DNA from: Sphaerolaimus hirsutus
Lineage: Eukaryota; Nematoda; Chromadorea; Monhysterida; Sphaerolaimidae
NCBI GenBank assembly: GCA_964036195.1
Contig: OZ038453.1
Location: 4,851,469-4,915,468, forward strand
Direction: 5' to 3'
DNA length: 64,000 nt
In this document: positions 5,976-62,569 of the stretch, one piece after another
Layout: each line of letters starts with the position of its first letter
Numbering within the stretch: the first letter of the stretch is position 1
The notes under the pieces: generated by a model
Database searches by the model: none
What the model was told of the DNA's origin: nothing
Seen by the model: the letters and a program-made list of their open reading frames with translations, nothing else
Position numbers and translations under genes: made by a program

Positions 5976-8900
5976 GTTGGCTTTTAATTACTTGTCAATT
6001 TTGTGGTGGGGAATTATTCAAGGCTTTACGGGGGGATTATTTAAGGGAAGGGGCTATTTGGTTCGAGGGTTTTGAATGAGGGAATTGTTCAAGTGGGGGA
6101 GTATTCAAGTGCATTATGCGAGGGAGTCATTCAAAGGGGGAAGATTCTAATATGGGGAGTTATTCAAGGGGGTACACAAAAGGAAAATTCTTCAGATAGG
6201 GGTCATTTAATGGACATCAAACGAGGGAAATGTATCACAGGGTAAAAGGGCAAGAGGGTAAAAATCACAGTAATAATTCATGCACATCAAGATAGATAGA
6301 TATGTATTCAATGAGGTACACCGTGGGGGAATTTCAAGGGGGTATTTTCAAGGGGGTGAATGTGAGAATAGTTCAAGGGGTACACAGAGGGGGAGTTTTA
6401 AATGGGGACAAAGCGATGCATAATTAGAGGATAGTTGAACTTGTGTTCACTTTTAATTGGTACCTACCTCATTGTTTAATTTCATTTTTTCATGTAGATC
6501 CGGCGGCGCGGCCTTCCTAATTCCCTACGTAATAATGATGGTCGTGGCCGGGCTGCCGGTGTTCTACATGGAGTTGGCACTGGGCCAATATTCTGCCGTC
6601 AACCCGACGCTGTGTTTCCGCAGAATGGCGCCCGTTTTGGGGGGTTAGTGGTTGTATTATTGTTTTTTATGGTGGTAGAAACGCGCGCCAAGGTTTTTTT
6701 TGGCGCTGGCGCCAATTGCCATGGCGTCAGGCGAAAGAGTAACTGGTAAATTGGTGAATGCATTTTCCCCCAGATATTTTATTATTGCTCGACGGAAAGT
6801 ACATTATGCATCAGCACATATTTATGTTTTGTGGTTTTTGCCGGAGTTTTACATTTCTCCTGAATTTTGATTTGATAACAGAAGATGCACAAAACATTCA
6901 CAAAGAAGACAGCATTCTCAAAGTTTTATAAAATTTTCTAGAAAATAGAAAATTTCAGCAAATTTCCTATGATTTCCGAAATTTTCCACTCGAATTTCCA
7001 ATGTTCAAATTCCCACCAAAAACTGTATTGCAAACTGTATCCGCAGGTCTCGGCTACACGATGTGCTTCATCTGTTCAATTACAGCACTTTATTACAACA
7101 TGTACATCGCTTGGGCCATCCGGTGCCACTCCCAGACACTGTAACATGTACTAAAAAATGTCAAATGTCATGCAAAGTGTCTAAGGTCATGTAAAATGTC
7201 TGATGTTATGTGAAATGGCTTGGAAAGTATCAAATGTCATGCAAAGTGTTATCAATCATGTAAAATGGCCTGGAAAATATCGAATGTCATGCTGTGTCAA
7301 CAGTTATGTAAAATGGCCTGTAAAATGTCAAAAGTCATGTAAAATGCACCTGAATGAAGTAAAATGATAATGTGCGTCATAAAAAGTTTGCAATTTTCCG
7401 GGGCATTTTCCATGACTTTAGATTGAGACACTTTGCATGTCATTTTACACTTTAGAGGACATTTTACAGTGTGCGGGAGTGCCCCCAGATATATGTTTGC
7501 CTCTTTTGCCACGACTCTACCATGGACCGGGTGCGAGAATGAATGGAATACTTTCAGTGAGTTTTGGTTGAGGGTTTTATTTTTGATTGAATGGTCTTTG
7601 TGCCTGTTTGAAATTTGAAAGCGAACACGACTTCTGGGGGTGAAATTCATGTCAGGAGTTTCCGCAAAAATCAGGTTTGTTAAGCTTGTGGAAGCGGGCT
7701 GGATGTGCGAAAATGGCACGCTTCCACACATTTCCAACACCCCCCCACTGGCATTACGAAATTTTGAAATTTACAGTGAAGCCACTTCCCGATGTTCCAC
7801 TTCCACATGCTTCACATAACTTCACACACGCTTCACGTGCTTCCAAAATTGCGGAAGACTCTTGTCGATGTTGAGGCATCAAGCGGGAATTAGAGCTCAG
7901 CGTCGATTCGACGTGAAATGATGACGTGAAATGACGTCGTGAAATTAATTACACGAGTGTGGATCATGCTACGGGTCTACAATTTTCTAAGGATAATATA
8001 TATGAATCAATACCTTAATCGTGTCCAATACTGAGTGTTATCAGCCACAACTAGAGCGAATTGAAAAATTCAATTTTTATCATTCCACGTCATCATTTTA
8101 CGTCAGGGAACAACTTGACATTTCACGTCAGACTATTGCAAGCAATAGTCTGACGTGAAATGTCAAGTTGTTCCCTGACACTGTGACGTGAAATGATGAT
8201 GACGTGAAATGATAAAAATTGAATTTTTCAATTCGCTCTAGTTGTGGCTGATAACACTCAGTATTGGACACGATTAAGGTATTGATTCATATATTATCCT
8301 TAGAAAATTGTAGACCCGTAGCATAATCCACACTCGTGTAATTAATTTCACAACGTCATTTCACGTCGTCATTTCACGTCGAATCGACGCTGAGCTCTAA
8401 TTCCGGCTTCACATGCATCATGGAATTTGCATGCACAGAAAAAATGGGTGTGTGGATGTGTCAGATATTTTACATGTTTTACTAATCTTCTATTTTCCGT
8501 TTTTCCTTCCTTATTTCACCACTCGTCGGATCTCTGCAGTGGAAAATTGCTGTGCACCGTTCCTAGGCCCAATGCATGCTTAATTAGTTAATGAGATGGA
8601 TTTGAGGTACGGGGAGTTGACACACAATACAGGAACAGTCACCAGTACCCCTTGAGGTCGTGGCAAGTTCCCAAGGACGGACACGTCAACTTACAGGCTG
8701 TTTCGTATCTGCCGACAGTTTACTTTGGTTAATTGTTAGATCTAGATAAAAATAAACTAAAAGCTCTAGTAAGCTTCAAGCAGTTAGTATGCTCCAGAGG
8801 GACCGAAATGGTTTGCATGGGAAATTTATTTATCAAATAATCTGAGTCAAATCACAATAGCACAAAATGAGTCGTAGAACCTCTAGTGGGTGCAAAAATT

Positions 8901-11900
8901 GCAAAAACAGCACATTTTATAATCATCAGTAAATCATCATAATACTAATGAATAATAAATTTAAGACACAACAAAATATAATAATTGAATGAATTCAAAG
9001 GCAAGAGGTTGATCAAGTGAAAACCACAAAATGCAAAGCGTAATAATTAATTGGAAAAATGAAATACATGATAATCATATCAATAGCAATATTGTGAACA
9101 GCGTAAACTTATAAAAACAGGGGAGCATAAATACAATGAAGAATCTTTCTTATTTATTTCACTAATTATCACTTTCAAAGTGTCAAAAAGTGGGCTTTTA
9201 TTTTTGTATTACAGTAACAACTTGAACAGGTGGTGTATCGCTATGTTATCACCACGCGCCGCTAGACAAAATTATTTCAGTTGCCCACCTGACCAAGGTT
9301 ATTGAAATATGTTTTGTGGTTTTTTTTCAAGGTAATATCATTGCCGGGTAATGGGTGGAAACGTACGGGCGCAGTACGCACTGCAACGACACTAGCACTT
9401 CTGAGTTCACCAGATCACCCTAGGTGATGGGACTTTTAATTGGCACTGCAGTGCTCTTCACTATCTGCTGTGCTCTGCATGTGTCGCGTGTACATAATAT
9501 CTAGTGATAAATTGATTTTTGCCACTTGTCCACCCATTACTGATTCCTAAGTAAAATTCACTCGGTCGGGGGGAAACAAAGGTTATCTCAGGCTGCTAAA
9601 ACGTGCTAACAAAGCGAACACCTTTTTTACGTGACAAAAGTTCCATACATTTCAAGCCCATTTCTAGGCACAACACTTTCAGTGGTTACATTTTTGGTCA
9701 AGAACTTAAGTAAATGGAATGGAAAAATAAAAATTCCAGCAACTGGTTAGATCCTACTAGAATTATACTCTAAACATGCTTAATAATTAAAATGTGGGGG
9801 TAATTAATGTATAATTAATGGGAAAAATTAAAAAAAATGTTTCATGGCCGCTGCAAGTTCCAGTCGGGCGTACCATCATGGGGGCTGCGGCTTCGGTGAT
9901 GGCGTTGCGGTGCACAGCGAACTTCGCGTTCTCTGTGACTGCACCACAAGTCTTCATTCAGTCACACATGGTTGTTTTCAAGTGTCAGGTTGTCTGCACA
10001 TAGTGGTCGTTTACATTTCAGGCATGGTTTACTAGCTGTATTTTCACCCACAGAAGCGTAGGGAAGCATGACGTGCCTTCACATCAACACTTCCCGATGC
10101 TTCACCAAGCATGCTAGTGCTTCCACACACATCACAAAAGCCACTTCACTCCTATTAATATGGAGCAGGCATGCATATGAGGCCTCTACTTTTAAAAGTC
10201 GACAAGTCCACAAAATGTGATTTTGAGTAAATCGCATTTTAAGTTTCCGATCCAACTCTAGGCCCGTGGTGCGTGTCCAATTTGGCCCTCTCATGCTTTC
10301 CATTAAGTTCCATATGTTGACAATAAAGTGTCAAATTTTCAGCCCCTGCTCTCAACCTTTATGTGAAAAATGGGGTGTCCATAAATTTCCATTCGGTCAG
10401 AGAGCAAAACTGTTTTTGGGAGGGAAATGGACTTGTCGAATTATTGCACTCGAGAACATTTTTGTACCCGCTGGCGTTGTGCCTGCCTTATGGGCAATTT
10501 ATGGACTTGTCGACTTTTAGAATTAGCTGTCCATGACGGACTTATCACATTTCTTGCTGATTTTTCCCAACAACAACGTAGACAAAGGGTGGACTTGTCG
10601 ACTTCTTGCCCGAAATTTTTGCATTTTTCCCCAAAAATGTCAAATTTGGCACTTTGCCATATGGGCATGTGAGGTCAAAAATTTTTGGAAAATGATTAAA
10701 AATGTGCGGAAGTGGCCCCAGATGACGTTTCTGCCCTGGGCCTAACTAGAAATTAATTATCATATTTTGGACTTGTCAAATTTTAGAAGTAGACGCCTCA
10801 TATGTGTATTATCGTGAAGCGTGTGGAGGCGCCAGCGTTGTGAAGTGTCTCCCACATTGTTGGAAACACTTGAAATGCATGGTCAAGCTAGGTGATGCAT
10901 GTGGAAGACACTTCACTCGAAATTTTGTGATGCTGGGGGAAGCGCGTGGAAGCACGCGTTTCACGAACCCATATTTTTGCTGTGATGAAGTCACTTAACT
11001 AGGGTGTCAAATTTCCGTTTCCGTTTTCCGTTTCCGCCTTTCCGCAGGAAAATTTTTTACCTTTCCGTTTTCCGTTTTCCGGCAGCCGAAAATTTTTTAC
11101 CTTTCCGTTTTCCGTTTTCCGGCAGCCAAAAATTTTTACCTTTCCGTTTTCCGTTTTCCGGCAGCTGAAAATTTTTTACCTTTCCGTTTCCGTTTTTCCG
11201 GCCCATTTTTCCGTTTTCCGGCTGAAAAATTTTTACCTTTCCGTTTCCGTTTTACCAGGCCATTTTTCCATTTTCTGCCTCGATTTTCAGTTTTCTGGCA
11301 TTTTTCCATTGTTTTTCCAATCTGTATTTATCTTCAATTGGCTCATCCCATTGTGTTGTTTTTGTCTCTTGGAGCAGCATTGACAACTGGGATTTCAGGG
11401 TCAGTGAAACAGGTGCTGTGAACCCAATTGGGTCATATGCTGACATCAATAATTTATCCAAGTTTCATCTGGTTGGTGTTGTGATGCTGTCAATTTGCAA
11501 TTTTGGTGTTGATATTGCCAGCATGTCCGTTCGGTGATTTTATTTCATGCCCATTACTGCGACAATTTTATTCACCTTTGGACTCCTGTCATTTTCTGCT
11601 ATTTCATTCATGACTGATCTGGAGTTTGACAGCCATTCCCTCATGTTCATAGAACATTGGTTAAATAAAGCTTTGACTTTGTAATATAGTTCTTATAGTA
11701 ATATGTTGTTTATTGTCACATTTAAATGGTATTTTATGACTGCTCCCAAAATTGCTGGGCTGCAGACAAGTCCAAACAGTATGCGTTCAAAATGAAGTAC
11801 TATTAAGTTATTTTCAGTTACTGGTTTTGAGGCATCTTTCAGCCAGAAAAATCGTGTGTAGTCTCTAGCTTGGTCATGCAATCCTATTTGCAAAAATGCC

Positions 11901-14900
11901 TTTTCAATATCGGCAATTAATGCTAGATTGCCTGCCCTGAACCTCAGGAGTAGGCCCAGTGCTAATGGTGTTGTAATCGGTCCTCTAAAAAGGCACTCGT
12001 TGAAACTGGGCTTACCTGCCGACCCATCGTACACGATTCTGCATGATGTCGATTTGCCCGGCTTGATTACTGGCTGGTGTGGCAGGTAATGAATCCCCTT
12101 GTTGTCTGTTTTGTCATCACAAATCTCAATTATTCCCTTTTCTAGTTGGTCATCCAAAACTTTCCTGTATTGTTTGAATAAGTTTGGATCTTTGTTGAAT
12201 CTTCTTATCAGTGATTTAAACCGTACCAAGGCTTCTGCTTTTCCCATGGGCAGGTCACTGATACTCTCTTTATACGGCCAGTCAATATAGTATCGTTTGT
12301 TGTTGTCGTTGAATTTTATGCTATTTATTATCATCTCCTCTGCAATGTCGTCATCAGGGGTCATCAGTGATTCCCATTGCTTCTAGACTGTGAAATTGTC
12401 GTAGTGTTTCCTTTCCTATGGCCACTATGGCTACTTTTTGATGATTTTTTGTTGGTTCAGTTAAGCTTGAACTACAAGTGAAGTTACAGGCATGATCCAT
12501 AGTTGCAGAATGTACAGCTACCACAATCAAAGCCAAACAGGCAAACCTGCATGCAGGTTTTCCTTCTGCAAATTTGTCTATTACCGTGCTAATTTCACTT
12601 TATTTTTTTCCGTTTCCGTGAAAACTTTGCTTTCCGTTTTCCGTTTTCCGGCATTTCATTTTTCCGTTTTCCGTTTTCCGGCCAACAATTTTTTTTTACC
12701 TTTCCGTTTTCCGTTTTCCGCTGAGTGAAATTTTTTTACCTTTCCGTTTTCCGTTTTCCGGCAGAAATTTTTTTTTTACCTTTCCGTTTTCCGTTTTCCG
12801 TAAAGTGAAAAAATTTTACCTTTCCGTTTTCCGTTTTCCGTAAAAAAAAAATTTTGACACCCTACACTTAACACTTTTTTACAAGGCACATAAATGTGAA
12901 TGTTAGTGAAGCATGTGGAAGCGCCAGCATCGTGAAGTGCCTCCACAATTTTGGATGCGCCTGTGGCGATGAAGTGTGTTGAAGGCACTTCACTGTGGCA
13001 CTCCACTTTATCTCATGATAAAATACTTGTGTAAGCGAGCCTCTTCACGCACATCCAGCCCGCTTCACGACGCATCACACTCTCATTCTTTGCTTGCTTG
13101 CAAATTTTTAAATAATATCCATATTTTCCAGGGTGCTACGACACAATAGTTGCGAAGACTTGTCTCAACAGCACCACAACACCGATTTATTTCAAGGGGA
13201 AATGTTGGCCCTCCAATTTCGAGGCCAATATAACCATACATGGAAAGGTGGAGACGATGAATGGCACTGAGCTGAACGACTTTTATGCAGATTTTCACAA
13301 CGATACTTCACCATCACTGGAATACAAGTTTGTGATGTTTATATTTTTGATTTTTTTATTGGGCCAAGAACTCCCAATTTTTGCTCAATTCAAATTTTCT
13401 TTTATGGATGATATTTGTTTGTGCCCGCAAGCTCAGTGTGAAAGCTGATTTTTACTGGGAATTTTAATTTTGGGAAAGCTTTTTTGTTGAAAAATGATAT
13501 CATTTTTGGCCTTTTTAGAAGTACTTTTTTGTGTACCCTTGCTTTCAGCAACACAAAAATTCTGCAAATGATTTGAATGCCCGTTTTATTAATAAAAACT
13601 CTTTTCAAAATGAAGATTCAAGAACAGTTTGTAAACATTGTGAACAGCATTGACAATAAATGTCAATTTTTGGAAAATAAATATAATAAAATATAATCTC
13701 AGGAAATTTCTCAAGAATAAAATGTAATTAAATCACTCTGAAAAATATATGAATAAAATGTAATTAAATCACTCTGAAAAGTATATAGATAAATATAAAT
13801 ATCAGAATTTGAGAGATTTTCTAATATTTTTAAAAAATCTCAGAAAATCTCTTAAAAAGTGAATATAATTAAATCTCTCTGAAAAATCGTGGAAAAAACA
13901 CAAAGCACGGAAAATCGGCTATTTACACAGGTCCTGGCTGGAGACCAGTCCCCAGCAAAAAATAATTTTTTTCAAAAGTGAATAATTGGCATGTATGGGT
14001 GGTTTGCTTGTTAATTGGATGAATTATCACCAAATTAGCATGCACAAAATTTTTGTGAGACGGTTACACGCGTTGATGCATTTTCTTTGTGGGAGTGTGT
14101 AATTTTTTTTGGATTTGTCTGAATTTTGGCATGTGAGTACTCCTTCGTTTACTGAGTATGAATGCCAAATTTCAGCTCAGCGCGGTTACCGGTTCTTATT
14201 GTATTTGTACTTAAATTTTTTTCAATCATTTTATTTTTGTATAGTGATTGAAATCCTGCCGGGGACCGGTCCCCAGCAATGTCAAAATGGCCCTGACCGG
14301 GGTCAAATGTCCCCGGTGAGAAAATTTTATTTTCAGTAAACAAAGAATTTTGGTCCCCGTCCCTGGCAGGGGACTAAAAATTTGTCTCCTGCCAGGGACA
14401 AATGTCCCCGGTCAGGGACCAAAATTCTGCTTACTGAAAAAAAATTTTTCTCACAGGGGACATTTGACCCCAGTCGGGGCCCATTCGACATTGCCGGGGA
14501 CCAGTCCCCAGCAGGATTTTGATCACTATAAAAAAATACAGTGATCAAAAAAAATTAAAGTATACATGAAATAAAAACCGGTAACTGCTCGGAGCTAAAA
14601 TGAAGGAGTACACGCATGCCAAATTTGAGACAAATCGGAATAATTTTATACACCCGCCCAAAAAAATATGCATCAGCGTGTGTAACCGTTTTGCAAAAAT
14701 TTTGTGCATGCTAATTTGGTGATAATTCACCTAATAAACATCCAAACAACCTATACACACCAATTATAGACTTTTGAAAAAAAATTATTTTTTGCTGGGG
14801 ACCGGTCCCCGGCTGGGGCCTGTGTACATAGCCCGGAAAATCTTATATTTTCTGAGATTTTTTAAATATAAATCTCACAGAGATTGTTTCAATGCTAATT

Positions 14901-17900: not shown

Positions 17901-20900
17901 CTTTGCGGTCCGCCGAGTATACCTACCTATTTTTTTCCAGTGGACCAGTTGGCGTCGAGCGGATCCGTTCTCGCGTACATCGTTTACCCAGAAGCGCTTT
18001 CGAAAATGCCGCTTTCCCAACTCTGGGCGGTGCTGTTTTTCTTCATGATTATTCTGCTGGGAATCGACTCGCAGGTGAGGGGGTATTTTGGTACCGTATT
18101 TGCTCGGAATACCCCCCTTGAATTAACCCCTCACCCTCGAAATACCCCAGGTCTTTTCAAGCTGTGAAAAGATAACCCCCCCCCCCTCGAAATACCCCCG
18201 TCTGGAAAAAAGTACATCATGTATGCAAGGTACATGATGTATTAATTGATGGCAAAAAAGTAACCCGCCCTCCAATAAGCCCCCGTCAACTACTGCCTCA
18301 AAATTTTCACTCTGTAAAAATAAACCCCCTGGGGGTATTTCGAGGAAATACGCTAGAAATCCTCATTGATTAAAAATATATAAAATAAATTTAAATGTTA
18401 TATTTTTACATTTTCAAAAACCTCAGAAAATCTCAAAAACGAGAAAAAATAATCCTGGAAAATCTTTCTTTCAACCCCATATTTTTGTATTTTTTCGGAA
18501 ATTTTTTCAATACAAAAAACCCAGACAATTTTCAAAGCTTATAAGTATCCAAAACTTGTTTTACACACCTTCACAGCTAGTGCTGGTGGAAACCCCAATT
18601 ACTGCAGCACTTGATGAGTATCCAGTTCTGAGAAAGCCCTGGTTGAAAACTTCTGTTGTTGCACTGGTATGCATAATTCTGTTTTTGCCAGGAATTGCCC
18701 TTTGCTGCCCTGGGGGTTGGTTGTTGTTGTTTTTTTTTGGGGGGGGGGGAACTTTTTTGCTGGAAGTTTTCATTTTTGTTTCTGAAAGCTGAGAGGAAAA
18801 TCGGTGAATTTTAGATTGATTTGAAAATTGACATCCGATCGTCTCATTATAAACAGAGTTGCTAAAGTACTGGACTTTTTTCAAAGTAAACGTAATTTTT
18901 ACTCACCACTGAGTACAGAAAACGTAAAATAAAAACTTTTTACTTTGACACTGAATAAAACCTGAGAAAATACGTTTTCTGGGAAAACGTAAAACTGAGT
19001 AAAACTGTCCACCCAGTAGACTACAACACTCATTTTCTCAAAAAAACACCTCGATCAACCCCCCCCCCAAAAAAAAACCCCCCAGGTCCCTACCTAATCG
19101 ACCTTTTCGACAAATTCGGGGGCGGCCTCCCAATGGTTTTCTCTGGCGCCTTCGAAGCGATCGTAGTATCCTATGTTTACGGCTGGCGTAGATTCCTCGG
19201 CGACATTCGACAAATGTTGGGACCGGCCAATAGTATGCTCAAAAAATTCACCGGCTATCCTGTGAATTATTATTGGATCGCTTGTTGGATCGCGCTCACG
19301 CCCCTGTTGTTGGTGGTTTGTGAGGGGGTGTCTTTTTGAGGGGGTGGTTTTTTGAGGGGGTGGCTTTTTGAGGGGGTGGCTTTTTGAGGGGGTGGCTTTT
19401 TGAGGGGGTGGCTTTTTGAGGGGGTGGCTTTTTGAGGGGGTGGCTTTTACAGGGGTTGGCTTTTTGAGGGGGTGGCTTTTTGAGGGGGTGGCTTTTTGTG
19501 GGGTGGCTTTTTGAGGGGGTGGCTTTTTGAGGGGGTGGCTTTTTGAGGGGTGGCTTTTTGAGGAAGTGGCTTTTTGAGGAGGTGGCCTTTCGAGCACCCC
19601 TTTCGAGGGGGTCTATTTGAGAGCGTGGCGCTCTAAGGGGTATATTTGAGGGGTTGGCATTTTGAGTAGGTATTTCGGGTGAAGTGATATTTTGAGAGGC
19701 TGCTTTCTTAGGGGGTAGACTTTTGAAGGGGTGGATGATGGTGGCTATATGGTGCGCTTTTTAAGGAGGGGTGAATTTTGAGGGGGGTGACTTTGGGGGA
19801 GGGTACCTTTTCAAAGAAGGCTTGTTGAGGGGTGGATTTTTTCATAGGGGATAGCCTTTTCAGGGGTTGACTTTTTGAGGGGGTGGTGTTTAGAGCTGTG
19901 GTGTTTCTATGGGTTGCTTTTCGAGGGGGTAGTCTTTTGACAGGTGTTGGTTATTAACAGGGGTGGTTATTTGTGGGGGGGGGGGTTAGGAGAAGTTAAC
20001 TTCCTTGAGTAACTTTTTCAGGAGCGTGGTTTTTTGAGTGGGGTGGCATTTGGTCAGTTGCAATGGGGCAATTTGGATTTGAAGTTGGGGCAAATTAGGG
20101 CCCTCTTGACATCAATTAGTCATATCATCCGACAACCCCATCTCCAAATACAACCCCCCCCCCACCCAGACAATATTCATTTTCTCATTTGCCACCTACA
20201 AACGGACCACCCGCGGCAGTTACACATACCCCACTTGGGCAGAAAGTTTGGGATGGCTAATATTTACATTCGCGGTTGCACCTATAATTGTGTGCCCCAT
20301 TGTGGTTGTTATTATGACCTGTGTGAAGGTTTGCAGACACGGGGGTTCCCTTAGGAGTGAGGTCGGTTTGGGAAAGGGGGTGCTTTTTTTTTGGGGGGGG
20401 GGTACACTGAACTTTTTAAACATGTAAAAAATAAAATAAAATAATTTTTTTTGGATAAGTGCCAAGTTACTATCACACATTGAACTGAACTATTGAACTA
20501 CACATTTTTATAAACCATCAACATTACAGCTGCGCAAACAGTTGCAACCCACTAGGCACTGGCAAAGGACCATTGGCTTCATCACTGAACCTGGAGATGA
20601 GGGAACCCAGGTGCCTGTTTTGGCCCTTATAGGGGACAGTCCCCGGTGAAAAATAAAATGTTTGAAAAGTCAAGTATTAGTCTGTATGGATTGTTTGCAT
20701 GTTAGTTAGGTTAATTATCACCAAATTTGCATGCACAAAATTTCTGCAAGATGGTTACACACGCTTACTGTTTGTTTTTTTGTTTGTTTTTTTTTTGGGG
20801 GGGGGGGTGTATACAAAATTCACATTCACTATACAAAAATACAGTGATTGACAATAATAAAAGTGTAAAAGAATAAGAATCACTAACCTCTCTGAGCTGA

Positions 20901-23505
20901 AATTTGGCATGCATACTCACCAAATCGATTAGTACACACATGCCAAAATTGAGACAAATCGAAAACTTTCTATACAACCCCCAAGAGGATATGTGTCAGT
21001 GTGTGTAACTGTCTTGCAGGAATTTTGTGCATGCAAATTTGGTGATAATAAACCCAATTAACATGTAAACAACCCATACAGACTAAGGCCCCGTTTACAC
21101 GGATTTTTTGTCACGACTCGACAACAATAAAACGTTCAATAAGTTGAGTAAAAAGGTTCCATATTCATTAGAAAAAGTGGTCCAGTATACCTTCTACCTA
21201 AGCGAATATGCAGGCCAAATTGCAGACTCGTGGTTGTAGCTCAAGATTTATAACGTCCGAAAAAAGTTTGCTATTGTCGCTGGCTGTCAGAGACAGTCCG
21301 ACAACTGTCCGACAACTGCAAAAGTTTTCAAACGCCTTTAACTCATGAGCTACAAGCACGATTGTGCAATTTGACATGCATGTTTGCCTAGGTAAGATGT
21401 AAATATAATTGACCACTTTTTCTCATAAATATGGAACATTTTTACTCAACTTATTGAACGTTTTATTTTTGTCGAGTCGTCACAAAAAATCCGTGTAAAC
21501 GGGGTCTAATTATGGACTTTTGAAAAAAAAATTTTTTCACCGGGGACTGGTCCCCAATAAGGGCCGCTGTGATTAGCCGTTGGAGGCTGGTATCACAATC
21601 ATATTTAGTGGGAATAATCAATTTTTCCATGAAATTTGTAAATTATTTATTTCAATGAAACATGTAACTAATCAATTTTTCCATAAAATTTATTTTATCA
21701 TGACACTGAAACTTACATCAAGCTGTATTTGACTCTCAACTTCCAAAGTGCCTTAAATTGTATTGTGCCTAATTTCAATACCTTACTCCAGTGTTGTGTG
21801 CCTTACATGTGCCTTAAATTCAAATTGAATTCGCACCCAGGAAGCAAGTGATAAAAAACAGGGACGAATTCAGGATTCAGTACCTTCAGGGGAATCTAAA
21901 AGTAAAGATTCAGGGACAGGCACGTCGGGAAGCAAGGAAAAAGGTGATGCCCATGAAAAACCTTCTCCTGAAGATACTTCAGGCAGCAAGCCATCAGGAT
22001 CTGAGGTTCTGTTTTTGTTCAGAGGGCACTCCCAGGCCCTTTAAATAACCAAAGTGTCAAAGACCCTGGAAAATGCCATGTGTCATGTAAAAGACCATGG
22101 TAAGTGTCAAATGTCATGTAAAAGACCCTGTAAAGTGTCATGTGTATCCAAAGCTTATTTTGTCATCCAAACAATGTCAAAAAGTAAGGTTTTGATAGAA
22201 AAAAACATAAGATTTGACACGACATTTGACACTTTACATGACCAATTATGTGTAAGTTCTCAAAATAAAAACAAATTCCATATTTAAGTTTTTCGAAAAT
22301 GAATATCTGTATTTTGAGTTTCCATGTTTTATTTCTTTCTTTTTTTTTGAATTCATAAAAACTCAAGTTTTTTGCCATTAACTCTAGTTTTTTCATAAAA
22401 ACTCCAACCGAGTTGCCATTTTGCAGGGCATTTTCCATGACTTTTGACACTTTGCATGACATTTTACATTTTACAGGGCTTTTTACAGGGTGTGGGAGTG
22501 GTACCAGATGGTTTCCCATCGTAACCAATAAAAACATCTCCCTGCAGAACCAAAAAGCAATAGTCAGTTCGGGAAGCACCGACACAATGCAGCCAAAACA
22601 GAAACTGGACCCTGACCAGGTGACAATTCAACAAGTGAAGAAGGAAAAAATAATTTGAGAAGTGAGAAGTTGAGGGGTTAAAGGGAAGTAAAATGAGAAG
22701 TGAAATGAGAAGTCAAAAAATAAGGGAAATGAGAAGGGAAATGAGAAGTGAAATGAGAAGTAAAATGAGAAGTGAAATGAGAAGTCAAATGAGAAATGAA
22801 ATGAGAAGTGAAATGAGAACTGAAATGAGATGTGAAATGAGAATTAAAATGGGAACTGAAATGAGAAGTGAAATGAGATGTGACTAAAGAAGTTAAATGA
22901 GAAGTCAAATGAGAAGTGAAATGAGGAGTGAAATGAGAAGTGAAATGAAATGTGAGAAGTGAAATGAGAAGTGAGAAGTGAAATGAGAAGTGAGAAGTGA
23001 AATGAGATGTAATGAGTTAAAAGCTAAGTAAGGTACTCACTTCACTTCTCATTTCCTGTCTCATTTCACATTTCACCTCTCAGATCACTTCACATTTCAC
23101 TTGTCGCCTCTCAAATGCATTTTCACTTCTCCACTTTTTGAATTGACCCCAGAACCAGGACCCAAATCAAAACGAAGGGTCAAAAAGCATCAGCGTCGGA
23201 AAGGCGTCCAGGTGCCAGTCCCAGACCCTGGAAAAAGCCCTGTAAAATGTCATGCAAAGTGTCAAAACTCAGTTGCCATTTTGCAGGGCATTTTCCATGA
23301 CTTCTGACACTTTACACATGACATTTGACACTTTACAGGGTCTGGGACTGCCCCCAGCAAAGTGACCGAACCCGAGGATCAAGTGACAAAGCACAAGACG
23401 CAAAAGTCCATCGACGACGACAATTTGGGCACGCAAAGTGACAAGCACGCGGTGGAAAGTGATAAGTGGGCGACGCAAAGTGATAAGTTGAGCGGTGCAA
23501 AGTGA
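5876..23505 (+). CDS. SLC6-family Na+/Cl--coupled transporter (5' exon missing)
   Basis: Joined coding exons: 5876-5975, 6498-6643, 7047-7122, 7489-7556, 13132-13327, 15047-15179, 15808-16046, 16658-16761, 17941-18074, 18577-18715, 19086-19315, 20170-20328, 20530-20610, 21841-22005, 22548-22619, 23153-23211, 23358-23505. All junctions are GT-AG with matching phases and give 749 codons including TGA. SLC6 hallmarks occur in family order: the TM1 motif, GQY in TM2, a Cys pair in the large extracellular loop, QIFFSL in TM6, LGIDSQ and VETPITA in TM8, and a TM12 ending at LRKQ. Members move amino acids or neurotransmitter-like solutes across the plasma membrane using Na+ and usually Cl-; the substrate here is unknown. 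Odd points: TM1 reads [10 protein letters not shown] where the family almost always has GLGNVWRFPY, TM6 reads SLSAGNGG, and there is a long Ser/Lys/Asp-rich cytoplasmic tail. Exon 1 begins in phase 1, so at least one upstream exon exists. I found no convincing start. Confidence 0.93.
6498..6643 (+). CDS. SLC6 exon: TM2
   Basis: Encodes [14 protein letters not shown] and then [11 protein letters not shown], the conserved TM2 with the Tyr and Gln linked to chloride binding in the family. Phase 2 in, phase 1 out. Confidence 0.93.
7047..7122 (+). CDS. SLC6 exon: TM3
   Basis: Encodes [11 protein letters not shown] and [14 protein letters not shown]. The YY of TM3, which lines the substrate site in the family, is present. 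The exon ends two bases into an Arg codon, exactly where a foldback element begins. Confidence 0.92.
7123..7488 (+). mobile_element. Introner: CAGACCC-family element = intron 3
   Basis: The whole intron is one foldback element. It starts GTGCCACTCCCAGACACTG, ends cgggagtgcccc plus CAG, and is filled with tgtaaaatgtcatgcaaag repeats and their inverses. The donor GT is the element's first two bases. The right flanking CAG is the acceptor; the left flank is CCG (one mismatch). Splicing joins AWAI-R-YMFASF in frame, as the SLC6 family alignment needs. Confidence 0.85.
7489..7556 (+). CDS. SLC6 exon: start of extracellular loop 2
   Basis: A 68-bp exon encoding [12 protein letters not shown] and then [10 protein letters not shown]. 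It matches the conserved LPW...C..WN...C segment and carries the first Cys of the loop disulfide. Donor is a perfect GTGAGT. Confidence 0.92.
7881..8409. mobile_element. GCGGGAATTAGAGCTCAG palindrome element
   Basis: A near-perfect 529-bp palindrome. The left arm begins aagcgggaattagagctcag and the right arm ends with its inverse, and they meet near 8140 at tattgcaagcaata. Both arms are rich in gacgtgaaatga. A single-arm copy lies at 33887-36110 and a diverged full copy at 61111-61529. Confidence 0.85.
8410..10044. other. AT-rich intronic DNA
   Basis: Nothing recognisable as a gene or full element. AT-rich, with a gcagtgctcttcac / tgagttcaccaga neighbourhood and short A/T runs only. Confidence 0.4.
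10179..10799. mobile_element. GAGGCGTCTACTT foldback MITE, copy A
   Basis: Ends gaggcctctacttttaaaag and inverse ttttagaagtagacgcctc, with internal repeats of ggacttgtcgacttttag. Flanked by ATAT on both sides (10175-10178, 10800-10803), a 4-bp duplication. It lies inside a GTGAAGC element. The second copy is at 42722-43334. Confidence 0.85.
11002..12862. mobile_element. TTTCCGTTTTCCG foldback element with captured retroelement
   Basis: Ends gggtgtcaaatttccg and inverse attttgacaccc, flanked by TA (11000-11001, 12863-12864). Both arms are tandem ccgttttccgttttccggc repeats. The centre (about 11250-12580) is a BEL/Pao RT fragment. A short copy without cargo is at 16250-16569. Confidence 0.75.
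11252..12540 (-). pseudogene. BEL/Pao-type retrotransposon RT fragment
   Basis: The minus strand has open segments separated by stops. One (12364-11693) contains [31 protein letters not shown] and FFWLKD, the RT signature of the BEL/Pao group. A second (11461-11252) contains [13 protein letters not shown], typical of the Pao connection region. Gag, protease and integrase are absent and there are several breaks. It is a non-functional internal piece. Confidence 0.8.
13132..13327 (+). CDS. SLC6 exon: extracellular loop 2
   Basis: Encodes [15 protein letters not shown] through NDTSPSLEY. It has four N-glycosylation sequons (NST, NIT, NGT, NDT) and the second loop Cys. The loop length and the S-P-S-x-E-Y ending before TM4 fit the family. 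Phase 1 in, phase 2 out. Confidence 0.92.
13328..15046 (+). other. SLC6 intron 5 with GGGGACCGGTCCCC foldback
   Basis: From 13930 to 14830 lies a long palindromic element. Its outer ends (cagtccccagcaaaaaataa and inverse) and inner blocks repeat the self-complementary motif ggggaccggtcccc. The centre (14250-14530) is itself a palindrome. A relative is at 20624-21570. The rest is AT-rich. Confidence 0.65.
15047..15179 (+). CDS. SLC6 exon: TM4
   Basis: Encodes [18 protein letters not shown], then [15 protein letters not shown] and SKGVKSAGK. The W..VLCLL.AW....KGVKS.GK pattern is diagnostic of SLC6 TM4. Confidence 0.93.
15283..15670. mobile_element. CAGACCC-family element, left end eroded (intron 6)
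   Basis: Alternating tgtcaaatgtaaagtc repeats, then their inverse. The right end is gggcttgggattgccac plus CTG. The expected left terminus is not visible. It lies inside intron 6 (15180-15807), away from the splice sites. Confidence 0.6.
15808..16046 (+). CDS. SLC6 exon: TM5-TM6
   Basis: Encodes [38 protein letters not shown] and [12 protein letters not shown]. This covers TM5 and the unwound TM6. The family consensus FSLG.GFG is changed to FSLSAGNGG, so two positions facing the substrate site are unusual. Confidence 0.94.
16250..16569. mobile_element. TTTCCG foldback element without cargo
   Basis: Starts gtgtcaactttcagtttccg, ends with inverse tttggcaccc and is TA-flanked. The arms are degenerate ttttccg / ttttctg repeats. 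It lies in SLC6 intron 7 (16047-16657). The earlier part of the intron (16090-16245) has a gcgcca-type repeat. Confidence 0.6.
16658..16761 (+). CDS. SLC6 exon: TM7
   Basis: Encodes [18 protein letters not shown] then [15 protein letters not shown], closely matching the [15 protein letters not shown] signature. The Ser of TM7 used for chloride coordination in the family is present. Confidence 0.94.
16762..17940 (+). other. SLC6 intron 8: foldback DNA
   Basis: It contains ccgtatt-family remnants near 16995-17195 (cccccctcgaattaccc). From 17395 to 17690 a palindrome with arms ccaccca...ggtgggt and caccccca/tgggggtg meets around gcagcgactcactacagggt. A short C/G-run block follows to 17850. Confidence 0.6.
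17941..18074 (+). CDS. SLC6 exon: loop 4 to TM8
   Basis: Encodes [20 protein letters not shown] then [17 protein letters not shown]. The LGIDSQ motif carries the TM8 Asp-Ser of the second sodium site. The usual GPGLAF is GSVLAY here. Confidence 0.93.
18092..18353. mobile_element. CCGTATT foldback MITE in SLC6 intron 9
   Basis: Left end ccgtatttgctcggaatacc, right end gtatttcgaggaaatacg. C-rich in the first half, with an atgtatgcaaggtacatgat centre. Both ends have diverged. Confidence 0.6.
18577..18715 (+). CDS. SLC6 exon: TM8-TM9
   Basis: Encodes [18 protein letters not shown] then [19 protein letters not shown]. It matches the VLVET.ITA..DE.P signature of TM8. Phase 0 in, phase 1 out. The donor ggg|gttggt follows a G-rich stretch, so the exact end is chosen by phase. 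Confidence 0.9.
19086..19315 (+). CDS. SLC6 exon: TM10-TM11 start
   Basis: Encodes [36 protein letters not shown] and [16 protein letters not shown]. This fits TM10 (FE.I.V.YVYG..RF..DI) and the start of TM11. The donor gtg|gtttgt is followed directly by a minisatellite. Confidence 0.92.
19330..19980. repeat. 16-bp minisatellite ggctttttgagggggt
   Basis: About 15 near-identical tandem copies of ggctttttgagggggt run from 19330 to 19590 and then decay to about 19980. It starts 15 bp after the exon donor. Long Pro/Lys-rich frames on the other strand are a by-product of the repeat. Confidence 0.9.
20170..20328 (+). CDS. SLC6 exon: TM11-TM12
   Basis: Encodes [32 protein letters not shown] and [24 protein letters not shown] is the family's TM12 entry motif. 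Acceptor ccacccag, phase 0 on both sides. Confidence 0.92.
20530..20610 (+). CDS. SLC6 exon: end of TM12 and proximal tail
   Basis: Encodes [17 protein letters not shown] then [13 protein letters not shown]...PT..W is the usual SLC6 segment right after TM12. Ends in CAG|GTGCC. Confidence 0.9.
20611..21840 (+). other. SLC6 intron 13 with nested foldback elements
   Basis: Begins GTGCCTGTTTTGG after a CAG and ends TTCGCACC plus CAG, so it is CAG-flanked like the introners, but the terminal match is only four bases. Inside, 20624-21570 is a ggggacagtccccggtgaaa foldback, itself split by 21087-21506. Confidence 0.6.
21087..21506. mobile_element. GGCCCCGTTTACACGG foldback MITE, TAA-flanked
   Basis: Left end ggccccgtttacacgg, right end ccgtgtaaacggggtc. 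TAA on both sides (21084-21086, 21507-21509). The arms include attgaacgtttt. The terminus and the TWA-type duplication are typical of PIF/Harbinger MITEs. Confidence 0.8.
21841..22005 (+). CDS. SLC6 exon: Ser/Lys-rich cytoplasmic tail
   Basis: A 55-codon exon, phase 0 both sides, starting [20 protein letters not shown] and ending [15 protein letters not shown]. Low complexity, acidic and basic residues mixed with Ser/Gly; no known domain. The donor gag|gttctg is moderate. Confidence 0.75.
22023..22504. mobile_element. CAGACCC-family CWG element inside SLC6 intron 14
   Basis: CAG on both sides (22020-22022, 22505-22507). Left end agggcactcccaggccc, right end acagggtgtgggagtggtac. Its left end is AG, not GT. 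Here the splice sites (22006 and 22547) lie outside the element. Without it the intron would be only 57 nt. Confidence 0.75.
22548..22619 (+). CDS. SLC6 exon: tail, 24 codons
   Basis: Encodes [18 protein letters not shown] then KLDPDQ. Phase 0 both sides. Acceptor ctgcag. It ends CAG|GTGAC, where an element-derived intron begins. Confidence 0.7.
22620..23152 (+). mobile_element. Introner: GTGACAATTC element = intron 15
   Basis: The intron equals an element. The left end GTGACAATTCAACAAGTGAA and the inverse of the right end (gggtcaattcaaaaagtgg) match at about 17 of 22 positions. CAG flanks both ends (22617-22619, 23150-23152). The interior is an inverted minisatellite of aaatgagaagtg (22680-23010) and its complement. 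The GT is the element's own terminus; the acceptor is the right CAG. Confidence 0.8.
23153..23211 (+). CDS. SLC6 exon: tail, 19 codons
   Basis: Encodes [19 protein letters not shown] plus two bases of the next codon. Phase 0 in, phase 2 out. The donor is CAG|GTGCCAG, the start of the next introner. Confidence 0.75.
23212..23357 (+). mobile_element. Introner: CAGACCC-family element = intron 16 (146 bp)
   Basis: Element 23212-23354 has the left end GTGCCAGTCCCAGACCCTG and the right end cagggtctgggactgcccc. CAG at 23209-23211 and 23355-23357. The middle has a short inverted agttgccattttgcagggca. Splicing at the element's GT and the right CAG rejoins GCGTCCAG|CAAAGTG, exactly the pre-insertion exon with one CAG. 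Confidence 0.9.
23358..23505 (+). CDS. SLC6 terminal exon
   Basis: Encodes [38 protein letters not shown] and [10 protein letters not shown], then TGA. The acidic/basic tail contains threefold (Q/E)SDK repeats that follow a coding repeat of caaagtgataag in the DNA. That repeat continues past the stop. No PDZ-type terminus. Confidence 0.75.
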
Positions 23506-24562
23506 TAAGTTGAGTGTCGGTTGAGTTGAGTGTAGGGGGGTTAGGAAGTGAAGTGATGTCAATTCTGCAAGTGGGCACGTTATTCAAGTGTTTGTGGGCG
23601 TTTCCCATCGGAGAGTTGGTGGAGGGGTGTGTTTCATTTCAAACACCCTTGATTTTTATCTAGGTACCTATTCAACTTTCACACTCACAAGTAAAATTTT
23701 TTACAGTATTCACAGCCACATGTCTTTGTGTAACCGTTTTGGGCACTTTCAACTTGGCAAACGATTAATCTCCTTTTTTACATCTTACACCTTGGTAAAA
23801 CCTGAGTTCACTGTTTTCACTTACCTATTTACCAACAAAAATTTTCACATCAGTTTTTTCATTTGTTCACTTGTCGAACTGACACCATAGAGTCCAGCCC
23901 CAGGGTTGTTTTACCCAGAAATGTTTCTACTTGACACCTGTTGCAGCTGTGACATTACCTAGTGATGCAAACATCACCAGGGGGCAGTCCCAGACCCTGT
24001 AAAATGCCCTGTAAAATATCAAATGTCATGCAAAGTGTCAAAAGTCATGGAAAATGCCCCGCAAAATGGCAACTTGGTTGCCATTTTGCAAGGCATTTTC
24101 CATCATTGTTGACACTTTGCATGACATATTTTACATTTTACAGGGCTTTTTACAGGGTCTGGGAGTGCCCCCTGACATTACTAGTCATGTAAGCCATGTC
24201 AATATGAAAATTTGAGCAGGCTGGAAATGTTTTGGAAGAATGTGATAAAACTACCCTGGGGATAGGCTTGAAAGATGTTTTCACATAAAATTCTGGTGTA
24301 GTTTTTGGTAGACAAAACCATTGTGTGGGTGTAGTAATGTTGGGAATGCTCTGAACTGCTCTAGGTGTTAAAAATATGGATTCTGATTAAAAAATAGTAA
24401 TGTTTATCCTTGTTTGAGTGTCAACAAATTCCCCCAGTTTACTGACAGTGAAAATGTTTTACCTTTCAGTTTTCATATATATTTCTGTTAGGTTATTTGT
24501 TGACACCCTAAAATTCTGTACTTCGCATACTGATTCGATTACTGAAATAAAGGAGACAACTA
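23506..24562. other. Intergenic DNA after SLC6
   Basis: No gene seen. 23981-24171 is a CAGACCC-family copy (left flank CAG, right flank CTG). The remainder is T-rich, and the SLC6 poly(A) signal was not identified. Confidence 0.5.
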
Positions 24563-26280: not shown

Positions 26281-26428
26281 GGGCACTCCCAGACCCTGAA
26301 AAATGCCATGTAAAATGTAAAATGTCATGCAAAGTGTCAAAAGTCATGGAAAATGCCATGCAAAGTGGCAACCGTACGTTTGAAACTTTGCAAGACATTT
26401 GATATTTTACAGGGTCTGGGATTGGCAC
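26281..26428. mobile_element. CAGACCC-family CWG element, CAG-flanked
   Basis: Left end gggcactcccagaccctg, right end cagggtctgggattggcac, CAG at 26278-26280 and 26429-26431. It is inserted in a GTGAAGC element whose intact relatives read catccagcccgcttcac at that spot, which supports a CAG duplication. Confidence 0.85.
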
Positions 26429-51563: not shown

Positions 51564-52019
51564 GGGGCAGTCCCAAGCCCTGTAAAGTGTAAAGTAAAGT
51601 GTCATATGTAAAGTCAAATGCAAAGTAAAGTGTCAATCAAAACAAAAAAAAAGATTTTATTACTGAAATTTGCATGACAATTGACAGTTTACTCTGCATT
51701 TGACTTTACATTTGACACTTTACTTTACACTTTACAGGGCTTGGGATTGGCACCTGGTGCCAATTCCAGTAGACAAGTGACAGCAAATTCACCTGTCTTT
51801 GTTAATTCACTTGACATTTACCACTCGCACTTGTTACTTGTCCACATATGGAATTTGCACCTGGTGCCAAATTCCAGACCCTGGAAAGTGTCAAATGTCA
51901 TGTAAAATGTAAAGTAAAGTGTCAATTTTCATACAATATTCAGTCATAACTTCTTCAAGGCATTTAAGGCATTCTTCTTGACATTTTGCAGGGTATTTTA
52001 CAGGGTCTAGGAATGGACG
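51564..52019. mobile_element. Three head-to-tail CWG elements sharing CTG boundaries
   Basis: Element 1 51564-51753 (gggggcagtcccaagccc ... gggattggcac), element 2 51757-51860 (gtgccaattccagtagac ... gaatttgcac), element 3 51864-52019 (gtgccaaattccagaccc ... ggaatggacg). The boundaries are CTG 51561, CTG 51754, CTG 51861 and CAG 52020. Confidence 0.8.
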
Positions 52020-62347: not shown

Positions 62348-62569
62348 GGGGGCACTCCCAGACTCTGTAAAATGCCCTGTAAAGTGTCAAATGTCATGCA
62401 AAGTGTCAAAGTCATGGAAAATGCCCTGAGAAATAGCAAACAAGTTGCCATTTTACAGGGCATTTTCCATTTTCCATGACATTTGACACTTTGCATGACA
62501 TTTGACACTTTGCATGACATTTGACACTTTGCATGACATTTGACACTTAACAGGGTCTGGGACTGGTAC
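62348..62569. mobile_element. CAGACCC-family CWG element, CTG-flanked
   Basis: Left end gggggcactcccagactctg, right end cagggtctgggactggtac. CTG at 62345-62347 and 62570-62572. The interior has four tandem tgacatttgacactttgca units on one side. Confidence 0.88.

Follow-up and report, generated by a model that had tools for sequence, protein, structure and literature searches.

We analysed a 64,000-nucleotide stretch of the genome of the nematode Sphaerolaimus hirsutus (contig OZ038453.1, positions 4,851,469 to 4,915,468, assembly GCA_964036195.1; hereafter the window), in which a 143-bp element lies in the 3' tail of an SLC6 transporter gene. This element very probably belongs to a family of introners, that is, non-autonomous DNA transposons (miniature inverted-repeat transposable elements, MITEs) that insert at and duplicate a CWG target (W is A or T) and would be removed from the pre-mRNA as an intron when their GT end lies 5' in the sense strand. 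The origin of introns is a long-standing question. Here, judging from genome sequence and protein homology, copies of a recognisable and highly abundant animal transposon coincide with exact coding junctions of ordinary conserved genes and always face the same way.

The tail copy (23212..23354 of the window, plus strand) was delimited by its flanks, end motif, reading frame and fold, and runs from its GT end to a GGGG-type end. It is bordered by two copies of CAG: an upstream, exonic one (23209..23211, plus strand), which would form the last three exon bases, and a downstream, intronic one (23355..23357, plus strand), which would form the 3' end of the intron and supply the AG acceptor. After GGCGTC CAG, the left end of the element reads GTGCCAGTCCCAGACCC. 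The right end reads GGGTCTGGGACTGCCCC (reverse-complemented, GGGGCAGTCCCAGACCC) and is followed by CAG CAAAGTG. Upon deletion of the element and one CAG, the tail exon 5' of the element (23153..23211, plus strand, preceded directly by ACCCCAG) and the final exon (23358..23505, plus strand) join into a single 68-codon frame ending at the stop TGA. The final exon has a long open frame in this joined frame only, and the other two joined frames contain several stops each. When the element is kept, translation stops inside it, 30 codons past the exon start. The tail intron would be of the GT-AG type, in phase 2, with donor and acceptor both present. A first-pass annotation had described a 143-bp element that is exactly an intron, is flanked by a CAG duplication and leaves an open frame when deleted with one CAG; the element, its flanks and the frame are as it described, and the intron reading gains support. 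The gene 5' of the tail is an SLC6 transporter, as hand-joined pieces of window open reading frames (ORFs) match GlyT2 and other SLC6 proteins and a TM3 exon aligns with SLC6 transporters. The tail has no homolog, so we sought stronger proof in a second copy in the same gene and in other loci.

The second copy is more decayed, 363 bp long and also GT end first (7123..7485, plus strand), and was found by BLAST of the family consensus against the window. It lies inside a conserved SLC6 segment that we take to be TM3, between CCG (7120-7122) and CAG (7486-7488). Upon deletion of this copy and the downstream CAG, the joined exon aligned without gaps with dopamine and serotonin transporters over 48 residues, and it matched the Pfam family SNF (E = 2.5e-14; residues 7-54 to positions 81-128). 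The CCG on the left gives the split codon CGA and CAG would give AGA, both of which encode Arg. A silent change on the CCG side beside an intact CAG on the right fits a left copy that is coding and a right CAG that serves as an intronic acceptor. One SLC6 gene seems to carry both an older and a younger introner.

The same family occurs at many places, as the first-pass annotation had proposed. A 16-base end motif was found 13 times in the window (up to 3 mismatches) compared to 0.18 expected, and none of 100 shuffles reached 13. Merged BLAST intervals of the family in the window numbered 19 and were scattered. In the whole assembly, CAG followed exactly by GTGCCANTCCCAGACC occurred 2183 times and CTG followed exactly by GTGCCANTCCCAGACC occurred 1900 times, and control patterns read backward gave 0 matches. 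The loci read (108 in all) came from the top of the two lists, 71 out of the 2183 and 30 out of the 1900, and from 8 similarity matches; all 101 pattern matches read lie at the start of one chromosome, C1. After removal of duplicates, there were 74 CAG-left and 30 CTG-left elements. With a 2-base shift allowed in the position of the right end, the right flank of the CAG-left copies was CAG in 55, CTG in 7 and neither in 12, and that of the CTG-left copies was CTG in 19, CAG in 6 and neither in 5. This concordance between left and right flanks (P = 9e-9, Fisher) argues that the target duplication is a 3-bp CWG, in line with the CWG targeting claimed earlier.

A 189-bp consensus, built from 67 copies 130-205 nt in length, forms a near-perfect palindrome whose symmetry breaks at the termini (GTGC vs GGGG) and at the centre. 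Its left terminus is GTGCCA and its right terminus GGGGCA (as reverse complement), where the left ends had been sampled by a GT pattern. Across four groups of copies, the median divergence from the consensus ranged from 6.6 to 10.6%; the six coding-like CTG/CTG copies diverged by 5.3 to 10.9%. By extrapolation, introns derived from the family would number above a thousand genome-wide if the exonic share of the 4083 exact GT ends is one third to one half.

For elements with CWG on both sides, we deleted the element together with one CWG and collected the frames that stayed open through the junction (12 codons or more on each side and 45 or more in total). The GT-first strand (sense) contributed 134 frames and the opposite strand 101. 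At a Pfam cut-off of E 0.001, the 93 sense frames scanned from the CAG class yielded 11 families with at least 8 ORFs matched, 4 of the 40 sense frames of the CTG class matched, and none of the 100 antisense frames did. Many other sense frames scanned singly against Pfam had no match, as with 13 of 20 in one sampled set at E 0.01. The matches correspond to 12 insertions in 10 loci, and 10 of the 12 extend across the junction. These are in OSCP1 (L033), a cadherin (L070), two PAN domains (L053, L054), a kinase (L077) and a peroxidase (L006, found by similarity search) and, in the CTG class, in chondroitin synthase twice (L104; one copy CTG/CAG, the other CTG/CTG), a second site in OSCP1 (L033) and the CBS domain of AMPK-gamma (L108). 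The leucine-rich repeat (LRR; L021) and zinc-finger (L068) matches are confined to one side of the junction. By its genes, among them a FAT4-type cadherin, SLC6, chondroitin synthase and an AMPK-gamma closest to PRKAG1, the genome looks like that of an animal. Retention of the element introduced an in-frame stop at the 13 junctions tested (a 14th entry concerned a peptide that lies elsewhere than the junction assigned to it). In the 10 domain-crossing insertions and the TM3 copy, with boundaries inferred from protein homology, the element ends coincide with the coding junctions. The GT end came first in the sense strand throughout, which is consistent with the earlier claim that the element brings its own GT donor.

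Two of these loci had features of their own. In OSCP1, a CAG/CAG introner and a CTG/CTG introner both lie inside one 3-kb locus; a search at E 0.01 found no solved relative for this protein. L006:1-3166 (reverse strand) holds a class I heme peroxidase or catalase-peroxidase-like gene in which the introner falls between GGCDGA and RVRF, and the alignment with catalase-peroxidase is gap-free at this junction. The match does not demonstrate that an intron was gained after transfer; the gene has further exon breaks.

Two sets of paralogs bear on how such introns arise. In the paralogous PAN exons of L053 and L054, the elements lie 22 bases apart, and each exon is uninterrupted at the site of the other. 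A second AMPK-gamma locus on C2, 76% identical to L108, runs through residues 8-82 without a break, whereas L108 is interrupted at residue 38. L108 is therefore not the sole copy of this gene. The mutual empty sites and the AMPK-gamma paralog support the view that insertion can make an intron de novo within an exon.

We assessed the orientation of the copies relative to the coding strand. All 12 Pfam-matched insertions were GT-first in the sense strand (P = 0.0005 when treated as independent). A codon model whose training set was 13 junction ORFs plus SLC6 (model 2), in which each locus was left out of its own codon table, gave 26 sense and 2 antisense calls for the 54 copies with GC-rich flanks and left the other 26 uncalled (P = 3e-6 for 26:2). 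Among 29 copies with GC-poor flanks, it called 11 sense, 3 antisense and 15 uncalled. The background table of this model was built from all training ORFs, which makes the calls partly circular for those loci. ORF length was rejected as evidence for the coding strand, as it was uninformative in GC-rich exons. A 5' end that must carry GT favours splicing over removal at the DNA level. L036 and L038, both on C1, are very similar loci that share one element at one junction, as if the locus had been duplicated once the element was in place.

Several observations weigh against the elements being spliced introners. The SLC6 tail gave no Pfam match, and its frame is argued from openness and composition. 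An internal AG 16 nt before the end of the tail element would move the tail to another frame. The donor GTGCCA is weak, and CTG/CTG copies lie in exons with no AG at the expected place. The junction-crossing matches of the kinase (L077) and of PAN in L053 fall under the Pfam cut-off, and the CBS match in L108 begins just three residues ahead of the junction. Codon model 2 called 5 of 83 copies antisense. The duplicated loci L036 and L038 account for two of these and for both of the GC-rich antisense calls, and by eye their sense frame looks like protein too. A codon model trained on 531 SLC6 codons only (model 1) did not separate sense from antisense (P = 0.23).

Taken alone, the tail copy and its frame are only suggestive. 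The element might be merely the end of a truncated reading frame or a piece of an older intron, with the downstream frame open by chance; the missing homolog would fit this, and we estimate that a 49-codon open run in a given frame is not very rare by chance. The behaviour of the family, the TM3 copy in the same SLC6 gene, the exact CAG copies on both flanks and the stops in the other joined frames make this very unlikely. Removal from DNA rather than RNA, by programmed elimination or frequent precise excision, would account for a removal that is exact to one target copy and independent of A or T in the target. However, excision of a near-perfect palindrome should ignore gene orientation, and Pfam gave 12 sense insertions compared to no antisense frame. 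We dropped removal at the DNA level on this orientation evidence and regard it as extremely improbable.

If the copies are spliced introners, the spliceosome would remove the element at a 5' splice site, C(A/T)G followed by GTGCCA, that is supplied by the element end, and at a 3' splice site from the downstream CWG copy, which provides AG where the target is CAG. The GT end looks like a NuwaI-type GGGG terminus in which positions 2 and 4 have changed. As RNA, the SLC6 tail copy is predicted to fold into a hairpin of -62 kcal/mol, and four other copies into hairpins of -110 to -143 kcal/mol. In all five predicted folds, the 5' end has four unpaired bases and the 3' end three or four, and pairing would bring the intron ends together. 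With somewhat less certainty, the hairpin, its four terminal bases usually unpaired, may bring the ends together and aid the donor; a donor as weak as CWG followed by GTGCCA makes such help from the stem plausible. The origin of the donor (GGGG to GTGC), the choice of acceptor (CAG vs CTG) and the role of the hairpin become testable by transcript reads alone.

The acceptor may differ between the two target classes. The first-pass annotation had the duplicated CAG act as the acceptor, which holds up in the tail and TM3 copies and does not generalise, as CTG/CTG copies interrupt OSCP1, AMPK-gamma and chondroitin synthase alike. The CTG/CTG copy in AMPK-gamma splits the protein between STKL and VVFDT, and the alignment with PRKAG1 is gap-free near the junction (L108). 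In OSCP1, Pfam residues 7-48 align with profile positions 48-89 across such a copy (42 vs 42 positions). In chondroitin synthase 2, the junction is gap-free, the similarity just beyond it is weak, and a 2-residue gap follows 12 residues downstream. GC content was exon-like on both flanks in 12 of 19 CTG/CTG copies compared to 33 of 51 CAG/CAG copies. Genome-wide, the right (acceptor) side carried CAG 1760 times and CTG 1185 times, compared to 2183 and 1900 on the left (P = 2e-7); these four counts are of separate exact patterns and not of one set of elements. We read these data as pointing to an AG that is preferred at the acceptor and probably not required.

The CTG-flanked copies might be true GT-TG introns, spliced under guidance of the hairpin with no need for AG, so that the CAG copies would be merely the half that looks canonical. 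The junctions in OSCP1, AMPK-gamma and chondroitin synthase 2 and the equally common exon-like GC favour this, as do the unpaired four-nucleotide ends that 51 of the 73 copies no longer than 210 nt have on both sides and the four of 12 GC-rich CTG/CTG copies (L083, L084, L100, L101) that are in frame with neither the last internal nor the first downstream AG. AG is nevertheless enriched on the acceptor side, the coding-like CTG-left copies L104 and L099 carry CAG on the right, and an internal or downstream AG holds the frame in the other 8 of 12; because such ordinary AGs could serve in these copies, the case for a TG acceptor is lowered. To our knowledge, GT-TG introns are rare in known genomes. 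We also observed a single U2AF2 locus: of 15 matches, only C6:10840437-10841607 reaches the C-terminal part of the model (positions 385-510), so that within this search, which covered U2AF2 only and scored exons singly with none reaching the cut-off, no duplicated, diverged U2AF2 was seen. This gives no sign of a duplication of the kind described for Fritillaria borealis (PMC13326754). Overall, GT-TG introns seem a doubtful account of the CTG copies. If these copies were spliced exactly, a transposon would break the AG rule at genome scale.

Alternatively, the CTG-flanked copies may use an ordinary AG elsewhere, either the next one in the exon, at the loss of a few codons, or one within the element, with a few codons added. 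Splicing to the first downstream AG would keep the frame in 7 of the 12 GC-rich CTG/CTG copies, at a loss of 18 nt each in L033, L104 and L108, 27 nt in L086 and L094, 3 nt in L092 and 15 nt in L093. Splicing to the last internal AG would keep it in 4 of these (L092, L093 and L103, 9 nt added; L108, 18 nt added), with 8 of the 12 covered by one AG or the other. In L108, a shortened right end brings the internal ACAG acceptor into frame; in most copies, use of ACAG would lengthen the exon by 19 nt and put it out of frame. Against this stand the 4 of 12 copies covered by neither AG and the codons at stake, which match PRKAG1 in AMPK-gamma (VVFDTQ) and fall inside the Pfam match in OSCP1 (MTMACK). 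We consider the use of an ordinary AG elsewhere possible, short of probable. The broadest version, in which a palindromic NuwaI-type transposon has made about a thousand or more introns, many of them ending in TG and defined by the hairpin and not by a canonical 3' splice site, appears unlikely on the present sequence data.

The spliced-introner reading can be compared with known systems. Work on introners with DNA-transposon features (Gozashti et al. 2022, PMC9860276) describes short non-autonomous elements with terminal inverted repeats (TIRs) and/or target site duplications (TSDs) that are exactly introns. It includes a case in Chrysochromulina in which the 5' splice site is carried and the 3' site is co-opted from a 4-bp TSD, with no TIR. 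For animals, this broad survey reports introners from two groups only (PMC9860276). The family studied here would share with those introners its own 5' site and its TSD-derived 3' site, and differs from those described there in its 3-bp CWG TSD, long near-perfect palindrome, animal host and many 3' ends with CTG. Among the open-access papers listed for introners and intron gain, with no claim on wider print, we did not find one described as reporting an animal introner with this type of carrier.

The noncanonical introns of diplonemids are base-paired and have a suggested MITE-like origin, according to one report (PMC12621601). Predicted pairing of the ends and a suggested MITE-like origin, as in diplonemid noncanonical and euglenid nonconventional introns, and short direct repeats, as in euglenids, are points of likeness. 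In contrast to the introns described in that report (PMC12621601), the elements here are a recognisable high-copy animal transposon with a 5' GT and often a 3' AG. Euglenozoan introns of this kind are recognised by GT-AG borders that are not conserved; here, coding copies were all GT-first (in a sample drawn by a GT pattern, with 0 of 100 antisense frames matched) and AG was favoured at the 3' end. In the tunicate Fritillaria borealis, many introns lie outside the GT-AG rule and U2AF is duplicated; introner transposons whose splice sites are weak are put forward there as one way in which splice sites could have diverged (PMC13326754). The likeness is that of an animal in which introns may depart from GT-AG.

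The first-pass annotation also called the carrier Harbinger-like. The NuwaI group of the PHIS (PIF/Harbinger-ISL2EU-Spy) superfamily has a CWG TSD and a TIR usually starting with GGG, and was found only in animals in the work cited (PMC4482050). By its TSD and the GGGG at one terminus only, the family may fit NuwaI as described there. It differs from NuwaI in that its other terminus is GTGC, not GGGG, and in that the element would act as an intron (PMC4482050). We linked no transposase or Myb/SANT ORF to the family. There are 163 DDE_Tnp_4 matches in the assembly; by eye, no listed exact end motif lies within 4 kb of four listed transposase matches on C1 between 2 and 12 Mb. Among the matches listed, many have near-identical scores, as in a high-copy DDE_Tnp_4 family (G000, for example C4:1282978-1283610). 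Most of those listed have four in-frame TGA in about 633 nt that cover only about 147 profile positions, perhaps owing to a shared internal intron or insertion.

Other copies of the family are spread over the window. Within an intron of the SLC6 gene lies a reversed copy (22023..22504, minus strand) with CAG/CAG flanks and the GT-type end GTACC downstream, and 3' of the gene lies a copy with GGGG-type termini at both ends and flanks CAG and CTG (23981..24171, no strand assigned). For three further minus-strand copies, a convincing coding junction was not found: 26281..26428 (CAG/CAG on the plus strand, equal to CTG/CTG on the GT-first strand), 51564..51753 (CTG/CTG on the plus strand, equal to CAG/CAG on the GT-first strand) and 62349..62569 (GTACC end, CTG/CTG on the plus strand). 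A simple repeat built around AAATGAGAAGTG, with the reverse complement of the repeat after it, fills an SLC6 intron at 22640-23130 of the window. The ORF list also placed a minus-strand minisatellite with a protein-like reading at 19250-19760, within an SLC6 intron. A reverse-transcriptase-like ORF lies at 11693-12382 (minus strand) and resembles those of BEL/Pao retrotransposons.

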